Source: Deltaproteobacteria bacterium
GTDB lineage: Bacteria > Myxococcota_A > UBA9042 > DTJE01
NCBI GenBank assembly: GCA_029547805.1
Contig: JAKPOP010000027.1
Span: 1 to 64,000 of the forward strand
DNA: 64,000 nt
Direction: 5' to 3'
Numbering within the stretch: position 1 is the stretch's first letter; every line of letters starts with the position of its first letter. Positions 13,395 through 19,728 of the stretch are shown here, in pieces. Made by a program: the position numbers and the translations under genes. Below the pieces are notes generated by a model, which did not search any database, was not told where the DNA came from, and saw nothing but the letters and a program-made list of their open reading frames with translations.

Positions 13395-14671
13395 GCCGCT
13401 TCCTGATCGAGGGGGGCTACCGGGTCTCGGGGGACATGACCCCCTCGGGGAACAAGAACGAGGCCCTTCCGGCGCTGGCCGCGTGCCTGCTGACCGAGGA
13501 GGAGGTGCTGCTGGAGAACGTCCCGCGCATTCAGGACGTGGAGGTGATGGTCCGGGTCCTGGATGCCCTGGGGGTCGAGACCGAGTGGCAGGAACGCCAC
13601 GTGTTGCGCCTCCGGGCCAGGGACGTCCGGGGGATGGCCCTGGACCGGGACCTCTGCCGCCAGGTCCGGGCCTCGGTGCTCTTCGCGGGGCCCATGCTGG
13701 CCCGGTGCGGCGGGGTGGTGCTGCCTCCGCCCGGCGGGGACGTGATCGGCCGGCGTCGGCTGGACACCCACTTCGATGCCCTGACGGCCCTGGGAGCCCG
13801 GCTCGAGGTGGCCGACGTCTATCGCCTGACGGGCCAGTGCCTCCAGGGGACCGCGATGTTCCTGGACGAGGCCTCGGTGACGGGGACCGAGAACGCGGTG
13901 ATGGCAGCGGTGCTCGCCCGAGGCACCACCACGATCGAGAACGCGGCCTGCGAGCCCCACGTCCAGGGCCTCTGCCGGATGCTGAACCGCATGGGGGCCC
14001 GGATCTCCGGCATCGGCACCAACACCCTGACCGTGGAGGGCGTCGACCGACTCCACGGCACCCGCCACGGGATCGGTCCCGACTACCTGGAGGTGGGGTC
14101 CTTCATTGGACTGGGGGCCGTGATGGGCGACGGCCTCACGATTCACGGCGTCCGGCCCGAGGAACTCCGCAAGATCCGCAAGGTCTTCGAGAAACTGGGC
14201 GTCCAGATGTGGTTCCAGGACGACCGGGTCCATGTGCCTGGGCGCCAGCAGTTGCGGGTGGTCCCGGACCTCCACGGGGCCATTCCCCAGCTGGACGACG
14301 CCCCCTGGCCCCAGTTCCCGACCGACCTGATGTCCATCGCCATCGTGGTCGCGACCCAGTCCGCCGGCACGACCCTCTTCTTCGAGAAGATGTTCGAGGG
14401 GCGGATGTTCTTCGTGGACGGGCTGATCGGCATGGGGGCGTCGATCATCCTGTGCGACCCCCATCGGGTCGTCGTGGTGGGCCCGTCCCGGCTCTATGGG
14501 ACCACGCTGGTCAGCCCCGACGTCCGGGCGGGCATGGCGATGCTGATCGCGGCCCTGGCGGCCTCGGGGCGGTCCGAGATCCGCAACATCCGCCAGATCG
14601 ACCGGGGCTACGAGGCGGTGGACGAGAAGCTGCGCCAGCTGGGGGCCCACATCCAGCGCCTGGACGACTAG
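13391..14671 (+). CDS. murA: UDP-N-acetylglucosamine 1-carboxyvinyltransferase (MurA)
   Basis: First committed step of peptidoglycan synthesis: transfers enolpyruvate from PEP to UDP-GlcNAc in the cytoplasm. 426 residues. Lys22 in SGNKNEALP and Asp in FPTDLM (E. coli Asp305) are conserved. At the active-site loop, where most bacteria have PGGCxIGxRP, this protein reads PGGDVIGRRRLD, placing Asp117 at the position of E. coli Cys115. The same Cys-to-Asp change occurs in Mycobacterium, Chlamydia and Borrelia MurA, which work but are not alkylated by fosfomycin. The ATG overlaps the recF stop. A GC-rich hairpin follows. Confidence 0.95.
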   Translation: MSRFLIEGGYRVSGDMTPSGNKNEALPALAACLLTEEEVLLENVPRIQDVEVMVRVLDALGVETEWQERHVLRLRARDVRGMALDRDLCRQVRASVLFAGPMLARCGGVVLPPPGGDVIGRRRLDTHFDALTALGARLEVADVYRLTGQCLQGTAMFLDEASVTGTENAVMAAVLARGTTTIENAACEPHVQGLCRMLNRMGARISGIGTNTLTVEGVDRLHGTRHGIGPDYLEVGSFIGLGAVMGDGLTIHGVRPEELRKIRKVFEKLGVQMWFQDDRVHVPGRQQLRVVPDLHGAIPQLDDAPWPQFPTDLMSIAIVVATQSAGTTLFFEKMFEGRMFFVDGLIGMGASIILCDPHRVVVVGPSRLYGTTLVSPDVRAGMAMLIAALAASGRSEIRNIRQIDRGYEAVDEKLRQLGAHIQRLDD

Positions 14672-14719
14672 CGCCGGCGGCGGGCCCGGGACACCCGACT
14701 GCCTGTCCGGGCCGCGGCG
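14672..14719 (+). terminator. GC-rich hairpin after murA
   Basis: Two long complementary arms (about 14675-14693 and 14704-14719) with the core GGCCCGGGACA/TGTCCGGGCC, one bulged base and a 10-base loop, directly after the murA stop. No T-run follows, so intrinsic termination is uncertain, but the position suits the end of the dnaN-recF-murA operon. Confidence 0.45.
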
Positions 14720-14740
14720 ACAGAAGGCCGTGATGGCGGG

Positions 14741-14769
14741 TTGCCAGGCCTGTTGGGAAACCTTATCAT
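14741..14769 (+). promoter_or_regulatory. Promoter for feoA
   Basis: TTGCCA (14741-14746), a 17-base spacer and TATCAT (14764-14769), five of six matches in the -10. The transcript would begin near 14776, about 25 bases before the feoA ATG. No clear Fur palindrome overlaps it. Confidence 0.55.
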
Positions 14770-14800
14770 CAGCACGGTCGGGTCGAGAGGGGAAGGCGGG

Positions 14801-15043
14801 ATGACGCTGTCGGAGGCCCCGGTCGGAAGCCGCGTGCGGGTGGTGGGCCATGAACGGCCCGGCGCCTGCCAGTGCGCGTCGGCCATCGCCGCGATGGGGA
14901 TCCACCCCGGGGACGAGATCCGGGTGATCCGGGCCGCTCCGTTCCACGGGCCGGTGCTGGTGGAGGTGCCTTCCTCGGGGGTGCGTCTGGCTCTGGGTCG
15001 GGGCATGGCCCGGTCCCTGATTGTGGAACCCCTGCCTGCGTGA
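14801..15043 (+). CDS. feoA: Ferrous iron transport protein FeoA
   Basis: An 80-residue cytoplasmic SH3-like protein that supports FeoB. The sequence follows the family plan: MTLSEAPVGSRVRVVG, a central LxxMGIxPGDEI stretch (here AAMGIHPGDEIRV), then VEVPSSGVRLALGRGMARSLIV. The ATG at 14801 follows GGGGAAGGCGGG; the open frame extends upstream, but the conserved start is here. It has its own promoter and is separated from feoB by a putative outer-membrane protein gene. Confidence 0.92.
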   Translation: MTLSEAPVGSRVRVVGHERPGACQCASAIAAMGIHPGDEIRVIRAAPFHGPVLVEVPSSGVRLALGRGMARSLIVEPLPA

Positions 15044-15145
15044 TCTCCCTCCGGAATGTGGTCTGGCGTTCGGCCGGAAGTCCCGGGGGTTCCGAGACTC
15101 TCTGAGGTTCATCTCGCGGAAGAAACAGGATATTTCGGTCTCGAC

Positions 15146-15175
15146 TTGACTTGAAATGAGAATGTTTCTCATTAT
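15146..15175 (+). promoter_or_regulatory. Fur box overlapping a promoter
   Basis: A perfect 8-3-8 palindrome, AATGAGAA-TGT-TTCTCATT, at 15155-15173 closely resembles the 19-bp Fur operator. It sits between TTGACT (15146-15151) and CATTAT (15170-15175), spacer 18 bases. Fur bound with ferrous iron would block RNA polymerase, so the downstream barrel-like gene and feoB are expected to be induced by iron limitation. Confidence 0.85.
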
Positions 15176-15202
15176 AGGCCCCGACCGATTCGGGGGAATG
15201 GC

Positions 15203-16093
15203 ATGACCCGCCCAATCCGGCTCCTGGGAGTGGCGTTCTGGGCCATGGCGTGGCTTCCTGGCGCCGCCGGTGGCCAGGAGGTTCCGGCGGGGGCCGGTGG
15301 GGGCCAGGACCACGGGGCGCCGGCGACGCCCCGGATCCGGGACAACCTCCTGGTGCTGGAAGAGGCCTACAACCAGGAACCCGGCGTCGTGCAGCACATC
15401 CTGGTCCTCGGGGTGGACCCCCGGAGCCGGGGATGGTCCCTGTCCTTCACCGACGAGTGGCCGGTCCCGACGGACCGGAACCAGGTCTCGATCACCCTGA
15501 ACTTCTCCCGGGATCCGGGAGCCGACGGGGTGGCCCTCTCGGAGGTGCTCGTGAACTGGCGACACCAGGCCGTCGGGATGGGGGGCGTCGGTCCGGTGGC
15601 GCTGGCTCCCCGGCTGAGTCTCGTGATCCCGACGGGGTCCCTGGCCCGGGGCACCTCCCGGGGAGTCTTCGGGGTCCAGGGCAACCTGCCCCTGAGCATC
15701 GAGGCGGGCCGCTGGGTCGTGGTCCACCTGAATGGGGGCCTCACGGTGACGCCGGGGGCGGCTGCCGGGGGATCGCGCCGGACCCTCTGGGAGCCCTCCG
15801 CCGGCGTGGCCCTGGTGGGGCAGCCGTTGCCGTGGTTCAATCTGCTGCTGGAAGGCCTCTTCGAGTCGCAGGAGGAGGCGGACCAGGGCCGGTGGCGGCG
15901 GGTCCAGCGGGTCACGGTCGCTCCCGGGGTGCGGTTCGCCATCGACCATGGGCCATCGGGCCTCCAGGTGGTCCCGGGGCTGGCGGCATCGCTGGACTTC
16001 CAGGTCCGGCGGGACTTCCGGGCCGGGAGGGACCTGGCCGTGGGGGTCATCGCCTACCTCTCGTTCGAGCACCCGGCCTTCGAGGTCGACTGA
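15203..16093 (+). CDS. Putative Fur-controlled outer-membrane protein
   Basis: A 296-residue exported protein. A signal peptide (hydrophobic LLGVAFWAMAWLPGAAG, cleavage near GGQ) is followed by a mature part with alternating polar/hydrophobic strands such as SLSFTDEWPVPT, PRLSLVIPTGSL and WVVVHLNGGLTVTP, typical of a small outer-membrane barrel. The motif NLLVLEEAYNQEPG is distinctive. It resembles transporter-like proteins of the phenol-degradation MetA type, but I cannot confirm the family. It lies between feoA and feoB right behind a Fur box, which suggests a role in iron passage across the outer membrane (inference). Confidence 0.7.
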   Translation: MTRPIRLLGVAFWAMAWLPGAAGGQEVPAGAGGGQDHGAPATPRIRDNLLVLEEAYNQEPGVVQHILVLGVDPRSRGWSLSFTDEWPVPTDRNQVSITLNFSRDPGADGVALSEVLVNWRHQAVGMGGVGPVALAPRLSLVIPTGSLARGTSRGVFGVQGNLPLSIEAGRWVVVHLNGGLTVTPGAAAGGSRRTLWEPSAGVALVGQPLPWFNLLLEGLFESQEEADQGRWRRVQRVTVAPGVRFAIDHGPSGLQVVPGLAASLDFQVRRDFRAGRDLAVGVIAYLSFEHPAFEVD

Positions 16094-16112
16094 GGCGGGA
16101 CAGGAGGATTCC

Positions 16113-18074
16113 TTGAGGAACGACAGGTCCGATCGTCTGGGGGTTCGGTCCGTGGCGCTGGTGGGTCAGCCCAACTGCGGCAAGAGCACCCTCTTCAATG
16201 CCCTGGCGGGGTTCAAGGCCAACACGGGCAATTTCCCCGGGACCTCGATCCGCTACACCCGGAGTCTGGTCTCGGTGGGCGGGCAGTCCCTGGAGGTGGT
16301 GGACCTGCCTGGAACCTACTCCCTGACCCCCCGGGACGCGGCCGAGGAGGTGACCCGTCGGTTCCTGGAGCAGGGGCGGGCCGACGCGGTGATCGCCGTG
16401 CTGGACGCCTCGGTGCTCTCCCGGAGCCTGGAGTTGCTGCTGGAGGTGCTGGAGATGGGGCTGCCGACCGTGGTGGCCCTGAACATGATGGACGAGGCCG
16501 CCCGGAAGGGCGTCGAGGTGGACCCGGCAGCCCTGGAGGCCCTCCTGGGGGTGCCGGTGGTGCCGACGGTGGCGACCCGGGGCAAGGGGGTCGTGGCGGT
16601 GATCTTGAAGGCCCTGGGGCAGACGATGCGGCCGGGGTCCGGGCGGCCGCCGACCTACGACCGGGACGTGGAGGAGTCCCTGGGCCGCCTGGCGGCGGAG
16701 GTGCCCCCGGGCCTGGCCGAGTCGGTTGGGAGGACCCCCCGGTCCCTGGCGATCCGGCTGCTGGAGGGAGACTTCTGGGAGGTGCAGCGTCTCGGGGGGC
16801 ATCCCGAGTCGGCGGGGCTGCTGGAGGCGGCGGCCCGGGAGCGGCGGTTGCTGGCCGAGATGCACGGCTGGCCCGAGGACACGGTCTTCGGGAGCCACCG
16901 CCATGCCATGGCGGTGGACCTCTTCGAGAAGGTGGCCACCGTGCGTCCCCGGCGGCGCCGTTCCCGACGGGAGCGCCTGGACGACTGGATCATGCACCCG
17001 GTGCTGGGTCTCCTGCTGGCCGTCGGGGTCTTTGCGGGGCTCTTCGGGGTGTCCTTCTATTTCGGGAACTTCCTGTCGGAGGTCGTGGCGGGGCCCTTCG
17101 ACCGGATCGTGGAGGCGGCGGTGCCGGGGGCGGACAGGGGGCTGTCGGCCTCCCTGATCCGGGGGTTCCTGCAAGGGGTCTCGGGAGGGGTGGGCATCGT
17201 GTTGCCCTACCTGCTGCCGCTGCTGCTGATCCTGTCCCTGCTGGAAGACGTGGGGTATCTGCCCCGGGCGGCCTTCCTGGTGGACGGGCTGCTGCACCGG
17301 GTCGGGCTGCACGGAAAGAGCGTGATTCCGCTGATCCTCGGGTATGGATGCAACGTGCCAGGGATCTACGGGACGCGGATCCTGGAGAGTCACCGGGACC
17401 GGGTGCTGACGGCCCTGCTGGTTCCCCTGACGGCCTGCTCGGCCCGGACCGTCGTGATCCTGGCCCTGGTCGGGGCCACGATGGGGCCCTGGTGGGCCCT
17501 CGGGGTGTACGGGATCAACATCCTGGTGACGGCCCTGGCGGCCCGGGGGATGTCGGCCCTGGCCCCGGGACAGGTCACGGGGCTGCTGATGGACATTCCC
17601 CCCTATCGGCTGCCGCCTCTCGGGGCCGTTGCGAAAAAGGTATGGTTCCGGGTGCGGGAGTTCCTGGTCCAGGCCTGGCCGATCCTGGTGGCGGCCTCGA
17701 TGGTCCTGGGGCTGCTGGAGTGGATGGGGGTGGAGCAGGGGGTCAATCGGGTCCTGGCGCCCGTGACGACGGGCCTGCTGGGACTCCCGGAGGCCGTGGG
17801 GGTGACCCTCTTCTTCGGAATTCTTCGGAAGGAACTGGCGCTGGTGATGACGTTCCAGGCCCTGGGGACGCAGCACCCGGCGGAGGTGATGACCCCGGTG
17901 CAGTTGCTCACGTTCACCTTGTTCCTGACCTTCTATGTTCCCTGCGTCTCGACGCTGGCGGCCCAGGTGCGGGAGGTGGGGCCCCGGTGGACCACGGTGG
18001 GAGTGCTGCTGAGCACGGGCATCGCCCTGGCGGTGGCGGCGGCGACCCGCCTGGTCGGCCTCTGGGTGGCCTGA
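16113..18074 (+). CDS. feoB: Ferrous iron transporter FeoB
   Basis: Inner-membrane Fe(II) importer with an N-terminal GTPase. 653 residues, somewhat shorter than the usual 700-780. G1 GQPNCGKS at 18-25, G3 [10 protein letters not shown] and G4 NMMD are present. The membrane part has the two gate motifs with conserved cysteines, GYGCNVPGI and TACSARTVV, and about eight or more helices. The start is TTG at 16113, six bases after AGGAGG; the frame remains open further upstream but is not FeoB-like. The gap to the barrel gene is 19 bases, so both are probably driven by the Fur-controlled promoter. Confidence 0.95.
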
Positions 18075-18090
18075 GGCGTCGCCTCGCCGG

Positions 18091-18261
18091 ATGCTGCGAG
18101 GTCCGGAACCCGCAGCGCGTGCGCGAACACCCCCGGAAGCCGGGGATGGAGGCGGCGCGACGCCCCCGAACGACGGGTTCTTCGACACCGCCGCGACCTG
18201 GGTCGGCGCCATGGGGGACGAGGACTGGACCGCCGGCTGGACCGCCTTCCCCGCCGACTGA
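18091..18261 (+). pseudogene. Remnant of a secreted-protein C-terminal tail
   Basis: A 56-codon frame from an ATG at 18091 ends in [18 protein letters not shown] followed by AGWTAFPAD and a stop. From memory, the pattern FFxxxxYxGA...WTxGWT closes many large secreted proteins, so this looks like the last part of such a gene whose body has been lost. The preceding 27 codons are Pro/Gly/Ala-rich and could be a linker. There is no ribosome-binding site or signal peptide. The 301-base gap between feoB and the L,D-transpeptidase gene holds nothing else apart from the promoter at its right end. Confidence 0.4.
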
Positions 18262-18316
18262 CGCGCGGCCATCGCGACGCCCCGCCATCACTTCCTGAAA
18301 CGACCGCCCCCGGGAG

Positions 18317-18375: not shown

Positions 18376-19728
18376 ATGGATCGCCTGGATCGGTGGGGCC
18401 TTCGGCGGGGATTTCGGGGCCTGGTCCTGGGGGTCGTGGCGGCCATGGTCTGGTCCTGCGAAGGGGCGGACCCCGCCGAGGGGGAGGCGGACCCCGAGGA
18501 GGAACTGGGGATCGGGGAGATCGACGACCTGAAGGAGGACGGGTCCTGGGGCGCCGCGCTGACCTGCAAGGCGCTGCCGGACCTGCCGGTGCTGCCGAAT
18601 CCCGAGATCGTCGTGTCGCTGGACGGGCTGACGCTGCGCCTCTTCGACGCCACCACCGGCTTCGAGAAGGTCTTTCCCATCGGTCCCGGGGCGATCCGGA
18701 ACGGCGTTTCGCTGACCCCGACCTCCCTGAGCCGGCCCGACCTCCGGTTCTGGCTGCGCCTGGACAAGCCCCTGGTGCAGGAGGTCCCCGATTCCCGGAA
18801 GGCCCAGCCCTGGGGATATGCCTACCGCTGCAAGTACTGGTGGAAGGACCCGGACACCGGCAAGCAGGTCCCGGTCTTCGCGGGCCTCCCCTTCCTGCGC
18901 CTGGAGGGGGCGCCCTCCCTGGCCTACGCGATCCACGGGCCCATCGATGCCTACACCGAGCCCTCGGGGGGACGCCTCAAGCGGGGCTTCGTCTCCCACG
19001 GCTGCATCCGGATGGAGGCGGCCGACGTGCTGGAACTGACGGCCCGGTGCCGGGGCAAGAAGGTGCCGGTCCGGGTGCAACGGTCGGTGGAGCGGCGCCC
19101 TGACGGGAGCGCCGTGGACCTGCCGGACCGGTGGCTGCTCTCGGAGTGCCGCCAGGACGGCGACTGCAACTTCCCCGGGGGGCGTTGCGCCCGGAATCCC
19201 TGGTCCGGTGCGGGGTTCTGCACGGCTGCCTGTACCCGCCTCTGCCCCCTGGACCGCTGGGGGTATCCCGAGTCCTTCTGCGTGGCCGACCCCGAGGACT
19301 CCGGGCGGGGGATCTGCACGCTCAAGTCGGGCCCGCTGAACGCCTCCTGTGCCCGCTATCCGGCGTTCGCGCTGGACCCCCAGGAGCCCCGGTTCTCGCA
19401 GCCGACCGTGAGGGCCGACGTGTGCCTGCCCGGGTCGAGGGGATACCTGGGCGGGCCTTGCCTGTCGGACGTCGATTGCCGCGTGGCGGGCAGCGTCTGC
19501 GACCTGGACGAGGCGGGCCCGGACCGACCAGGACGGTGCACGCTGGCCTGCACGAGGACCTGTCCGGACCAGACGGGGGCCCCCGGGACCTTCTGTGTCA
19601 GCGATGGGGGTGAGGGGCGCTGCGTCGCGAAGTGCGTGCTGGATGACGACTGCCTGCCCGGGGAGACCTGCCAGGCCGGGACCCCCCGTTTCGGCCAGCC
19701 CTCTGTCACGGCCTCCACCTGCCTCTGA
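18376..19728 (+). CDS. L,D-transpeptidase (YkuD) lipoprotein with cysteine-rich tail
   Basis: 450 residues. A lipoprotein signal ends at lipobox Cys28 (VWSC), then comes an acidic spacer. The YkuD catalytic domain spans about 75-225 with the signature His187 (AIHGPIDAY) and SHGCIRM at 207-213, nucleophile Cys210. Such enzymes form 3-3 cross-links in peptidoglycan or attach proteins to it. The C-terminal half (about 245-450) has Cys-rich modules (CRQDGDCNFPGGRC, CLSDVDCRVAGSVC, CVLDDDCLPGETC) like those of the other lipoproteins in the window. The ATG follows GGAGGAG. The combination suggests anchoring near the outer membrane, acting in the periplasm. Confidence 0.9.
   Translation: MDRLDRWGLRRGFRGLVLGVVAAMVWSCEGADPAEGEADPEEELGIGEIDDLKEDGSWGAALTCKALPDLPVLPNPEIVVSLDGLTLRLFDATTGFEKVFPIGPGAIRNGVSLTPTSLSRPDLRFWLRLDKPLVQEVPDSRKAQPWGYAYRCKYWWKDPDTGKQVPVFAGLPFLRLEGAPSLAYAIHGPIDAYTEPSGGRLKRGFVSHGCIRMEAADVLELTARCRGKKVPVRVQRSVERRPDGSAVDLPDRWLLSECRQDGDCNFPGGRCARNPWSGAGFCTAACTRLCPLDRWGYPESFCVADPEDSGRGICTLKSGPLNASCARYPAFALDPQEPRFSQPTVRADVCLPGSRGYLGGPCLSDVDCRVAGSVCDLDEAGPDRPGRCTLACTRTCPDQTGAPGTFCVSDGGEGRCVAKCVLDDDCLPGETCQAGTPRFGQPSVTASTCL

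Follow-up and report, generated by a model that had tools for sequence, protein, structure and literature searches.

A gene encoding a predicted outer-membrane barrel is inserted between feoA and feoB in the 4.08-Mb genome of a deltaproteobacterium, behind a perfect Fur-type palindrome, and because its relatives in many phyla are found beside several unrelated metal importers the barrel may be a dedicated outer door for ferrous iron. The best explanation of these observations, and one that we regard as reasonably probable, is that the protein forms an outer-membrane channel, independent of TonB and controlled by Fur, for Fe2+ or for divalent metals more generally. The passage of free Fe2+ across the outer membrane is usually credited to general porins.

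The window analysed, a stretch of 64,000 nucleotides from a genome that its relatives place in Myxococcota, carries on its forward strand feoA (14801-15043; PF04023, E 1.7e-17), the gene for the 296-residue barrel (15203-16093; recognised from its reading frame, predicted fold and homologues) and feoB (16113-18074), which has a TTG start with AGGAGG upstream and matches TIGR00437 at 434 bits, the cut-off being 316. The reading frames and the two family matches confirm what a sequence-only reading of this DNA had claimed, namely that an exported protein is encoded between feoA and feoB. The barrel gene is separated from feoB by 19 bp, feoA ends about 160 bp ahead of the barrel gene, and no terminator-like sites were found across 14660-18300. 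Just 3' of feoB, the stretch 18376-19728 encodes a protein in which cysteine-rich repeats come after an SHGCIRM motif of the kind typical of L,D-transpeptidases.

A promoter scan of the region revealed exactly two promoter-like sites, compared with 0.1 in shuffled sequences. The first, TTGCCA-17-TATCAT (14741-14769, forward strand), lies ahead of feoA and coincides with a weaker Fur-like box, TTGGGAAACCTTATCAT (14753-14769, forward strand), that has 3 mismatches to the Fur 17-mer. The second, TTGACT-18-CATTAT (15146-15175, forward strand), is the putative promoter of the barrel gene and feoB, and it is here that the perfect 8-3-8 palindrome AATGAGAATGTTTCTCATT is found (15155-15173, forward strand). 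Allowing up to 3 mismatches, this palindrome has no other match in the window (and shuffles gave 0); at up to 2 mismatches it has no second copy in the whole 4.08-Mb genome, where it is also the top match to a general Fur 17-mer. The window contains no copy of the E. coli Fur consensus itself. The sequence-only reading had thus been right about the palindrome and about its overlap with a promoter, but the box does not simply lie between -35 and -10, since it also overlaps the proposed -10 element CATTAT (15170-15175), nor does it stand before the iron operon as a whole: being downstream of feoA it fronts the barrel gene and feoB, and not feoA, which has a promoter of its own. The genome contains one Fur-family gene, whose product is closest to the Fur models and scores under their curated cut-offs, so that both a Fur-type palindrome at a promoter and a Fur-family protein are present. 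Second place genome-wide goes to the Fur-type site TTGATAAACGTTCTCAA, which ends about 20 bp upstream of a gene for an Fe/Mn-type superoxide dismutase (L122:1501-2235; C32:122592 in the genome's own numbering). Superoxide dismutase genes are classic Fur targets.

Comparison within family f1 (13 genomes) suggests how this arrangement may have arisen. The order feoA, barrel gene, feoB is restricted to the present genome (G000) and its sister species (G001), in which the box TTGGGAAACCTTATCAT at the feoA promoter is identical and the gene order is kept, but the counterpart of the perfect palindrome is degraded to TTGAGAAGTGTTCGCAG. A Fur-like box occupies the same position at feoA in 10 further genomes of the family that have the main FeoA-FeoB pair, all scoring at least slightly higher than TTGGGAAACCTTATCAT, and such a box precedes 12 of 12 feoA genes of that pair. 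It therefore appears that feo is ancestrally Fur-linked in the family and that the barrel gene was the addition to which the perfect box belongs. An intact barrel gene is present in three genomes of the family; in G011 it is not at the feo locus but next to genes for a polyamine-type ABC transporter. In G007 the feoA-feoB interval (L027:676-11127) is occupied by genes for a TonB-dependent receptor, a DUF3450 protein, two ExbB-type proteins, ExbD, TonB and a TPR protein, together with a barrel-gene remnant of about 85 codons next to feoB; it looks as though one outer-membrane route replaced the other. Since G000 and G001 group in the FeoB tree with G005, G011 and G012, and not with G007, either the barrel gene was once more widespread in the feo locus or it entered twice.

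The structure of the 296-residue protein was predicted with AlphaFold2 from 54 sequences (the protein and 53 homologues), giving a model with a pLDDT of 88.1 and a pTM of 0.81 that consists of one N-terminal helix and about 12 long antiparallel strands. A poor earlier model from 3 sequences (pLDDT 55) was superseded by it. The hydrophobic helix at residues 3-22 is likely to be a signal segment, and is followed by a conserved stretch at approximately 42-61 and by the barrel at 62-291. The prediction of a 12-strand outer-membrane barrel is thus a confident one, and the guess that it was "barrel-like", for which structure prediction had been proposed as the check, was right. Most strands show an alternation of conserved polar residues, which is what positions facing the lumen would be expected to give. 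The features of TonB-dependent receptors are lacking, in that there is no plug domain (PF07715) and there are about 12 strands and not the 22 of such a barrel. The nearest solved folds, as determined with Foldseek and VIA-align, are FapF (Z 21.8) and the COG4313 channel Pput2725 (PDB 4rl8; Z 21.3), the predicted model matching the latter over 229 residues with an rmsd of 2.9 and aligning from residue 51 onward with residue 2 onward of 4rl8. Conservation within the family is strongest at EEAYNQE, a stretch that matches the N-terminal residues filling the lumen of Pput2725. Sequence comparison was much less informative for the protein on its own: a search of Pfam and NCBIfam produced no match even at an E value of 10, and a profile search of PDB sequences yielded chance matches only, with 4rl8 not among them. 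PF13557 (Phenol_MetA_deg) was matched by 29 of the 54 relatives at E<=1 (best 5e-9), although not by the 296-residue protein itself.

The main rival explanation, which we consider rather unlikely, is that the protein is an iron-regulated channel of the COG4313/Phenol_MetA_deg type for hydrophobic or amphipathic molecules, such as an iron-binding small molecule or a lipid, and owes its place beside feoB simply to the need for both proteins under iron limitation. It draws on the match to the 4rl8 fold, on two relatives (L080 and L064) that exceed the PF13557 cut-off of 22 bits with scores of 36.3 and 24.8, and on the association of known COG4313 proteins with hydrophobic substrates (PMC4493636). 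However, the conserved residues presumed to lie on the lumen side of the model are mostly polar or charged, and the genes that recur around the family encode metal-ion transporters (FeoB, Nramp, ABC-3 and CzcA) and not degradation enzymes.

The protein belongs to an unnamed family whose hallmark, IQDNSFLIEEAYNQE, is present near the N-terminus of most members. A scan of 84,980 species genomes produced 309 loci, and the neighbour counts and the tree described below are for the best 80 of these; as they are the most similar of the 309, the counts may not hold for the remainder. The 80 loci come from Myxococcota, Thermodesulfobacteriota, Nitrospirota, Acidobacteriota, Gemmatimonadota, Elusimicrobiota, Planctomycetota, Pseudomonadota, Ignavibacteriota, Bacteroidota and others, many of them being metagenome bins for which taxon labels can be wrong. 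The family is rare in Myxococcota, where it was found in 3 of 284 sampled genomes, compared with 223 that have FeoB above the cut-off, a sample outside which the Anaeromyxobacter members from the family scan may fall. The barrel is consequently not a regular companion of feoB, and Feo clearly works without it. Weak matches in two further Myxococcota genomes (G028 and G126) were short and of low identity, were lost when a profile was used, and were rejected. Neither the family nor its breadth turned up in the papers searched, from which most subscription journals were missing; the word "undescribed" seems right for this family, but porins of other families, regulated by Fur and fronting feoAB, had been predicted in 2004 (PMC545781).

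Neighbouring genes were identified by scanning each one singly within the stored flanks. FeoB was encoded in the flank of 11 of the 80 loci, on the same strand in 10 of them, whereas 0.23-0.68 loci would be expected by chance if genomes are assumed to carry 1-3 feoB copies per 4 Mb. On the tree the feo label needs 9 changes, at least 6 of which are forced by well-supported branches, and six independent FeoB-neighbour events alone have a probability of between 2e-7 and 8e-5; the barrel is thus encoded with feoB in several independent lineages. A locus from Elusimicrobia (L063) has the barrel gene directly 5' of feoB, as in the window. In L064 the order is feoB, a gene for a DtxR-type metal-sensing repressor fused to a FeoA domain (L064:5924-6583) and then the barrel gene, and in L079 it is Fur, barrel, second barrel, FeoA and FeoB. 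The latter locus, from Anaeromyxobacter sp. RBG_16_69_14 (L079:2562-8124), therefore contains two different barrels in one feo locus, the second being a Phenol_MetA_deg protein.

The remaining 69 of the 80 nearest loci have FeoB nowhere in the stored flank. Some of the loci are associated with other metal transporters: in L114 an Nramp gene lies 44 bp 3' of the barrel gene, in L081 a zinc/manganese-type ABC system (ABC-3) is directly 5' of it, similar ABC genes are nearby on the opposite strand in L073 and L112, and Nramp genes occur at a distance of 2-3 kb in L060 and L101. Many loci have neither Feo, Nramp, ABC-3 nor RND neighbours. The proposal of the sequence-only reading that the protein is a partner of Feo is therefore upheld in so far as linkage to feoB recurs well above chance and is accompanied by an enrichment of Fur boxes, but must be widened, since most of the homologues analysed lack feo neighbours and some are beside Nramp, ABC-3 or CzcA, so that a divalent-metal channel fits better than a Feo partner.

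An alternative reading of the same neighbourhoods is that the barrel serves in metal export or detoxification together with CzcA-type RND pumps, its linkage to feo reflecting general metal homeostasis. CzcA-type RND pumps export metals, and RND genes of this type occur in 20 of the 80 loci (a representative belongs to the CusA/CzcA family). We nevertheless regard this as quite improbable, as repression of the Fur type would switch the gene off when iron is plentiful, the reverse of what detoxification needs, and the codirectional pairing with importers in L063, L114, L081 and the window fits import. It is more improbable still that chance placed in the feo locus a protein with a general or structural role in the outer membrane, or a FapF-like protein-secretion barrel. 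That FapF is the top fold match, that the gene is rare within Myxococcota and that its location varies between relatives would all be in keeping with such an accident, but not the recurrence of the feo linkage and the Fur boxes found across the family; moreover the long N-terminal region that precedes the barrel in FapF is not present in the 296-residue protein, which has no room for it.

Two Nitrospirae genomes encode near-identical barrel proteins (L050:6162-7741 and L056:6938-7741), one beside genes for a PccH-type cytochrome c and a transposase and the other beside feoA-feoB, a difference that points to a recent change of location. In Geothrix/Holophagaceae loci (L069, L072, L087, L109 and others) the flanks of the barrel gene contain several peptidase S46 genes in a run and, on the other strand, a gene for a large protein, and the upstream region has a TGAGACTCAATATCA-type palindrome that is conserved.

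Fur-type boxes are linked to the family as a whole. Leaving out the Geothrix relatives, boxes scoring at least 20 were found upstream of 13 of 67 homologues, whereas among 2,480 control tiles drawn from these loci the number was 25 (Fisher 3e-12). This value is a guide only, given that the 17-mer was weighted by hand and that related loci do not count as independent. The excess at this score was seen in each G+C class, and several of the top tile scores themselves sit 5' of gene runs leading into the barrel gene (L064, L046, L041, L050 and L062). An initial control was dropped, as it included intergenic regions that were shared and Geothrix loci that were almost identical.

If the preferred reading of a Fur-controlled metal channel is correct, scarcity of iron would release Fur from the palindrome and the barrel gene would be transcribed together with feoB, whilst in plentiful iron Fur-Fe would repress both. 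Fe2+, or divalent metal ions, would then pass through the 12-strand channel into the periplasm, where FeoB would pick up Fe2+. The channel, being without the features of a TonB receptor, would be passive. Invariant polar residues would line its lumen, and the conserved N-terminal segment probably occupies part of it, where it may serve in gating or selection. The broader proposal that in at least ten phyla this one family provides a common way in for Fe2+ and other divalent metals, paired with whichever inner-membrane importer is available (Feo, Nramp or ABC-3), is put forward tentatively as a plausible extension. If true, it would provide a role for a protein family that no curated model used here names, and a dedicated Fur-controlled family would open the passage of free Fe2+ across the outer membrane to direct tests in strains that can be cultivated, the genera concerned including the metal-cycling Geothrix, Geobacter, Anaeromyxobacter and Gallionella and the N-terminal signature being strongly conserved.

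A number of known systems bear comparison. MnoP is an outer-membrane Mn2+ channel of Bradyrhizobium under the control of the Fur-family regulator Mur. Compared by description only, MnoP (mentioned in PMC6011978) is a precedent for a non-TonB divalent-metal channel under such a regulator, although in another organism and for another metal. FapF, an amyloid secretion channel, resembles the present protein in fold, but its solved structure aligns from residue 88 or 89, whereas here the alignment starts from residue 42, signal segment included. The COG4313 channels of PF13557 (Pput2725, SphA and TcpY) have the 12-strand barrel in common with it, and the region before strand 1 aligns with the N-terminal 14 residues that fill the lumen of Pput2725, a protein reported to be unlikely to carry hydrophilic molecules (PMC4493636). 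They differ in that the context here is one of metal transport and Fur and not of hydrophobic-compound degradation, and in that the protein itself is without a Pfam match. Two types of Fur-regulated porin were predicted by Rodionov in 2004 in Geobacter and Desulfuromonas, with ferrous iron transport as the suggested function: psp and an OprB-type porin of a porin-feoA-feoA-feoB2 operon, assigned to PF07396 and PF04966 respectively (PMC545781). These likewise place a porin under a Fur box, in one case ahead of feoAB, but the families differ, neither PF07396 nor PF04966 being among the 19 families matched by any of the 54 members at E<=1. FupA of Francisella, an outer-membrane protein of ferrous iron uptake (PMC4905997, PMC7432831), is likewise described as working with FeoB; it is separately named, has been studied experimentally and is compared here by description only. 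E. coli OmpC and OmpF carry Fe2+ for FeoB (PMC7315122) and so also provide passive passage, but are general porins, controlled by EnvZ/OmpR and unlinked to feo. With the Fur-regulated porins, OmpC/OmpF and FupA as precedents the idea of such an entrance is known, and it is the family and its breadth that, to judge from the papers searched, appear to be new.
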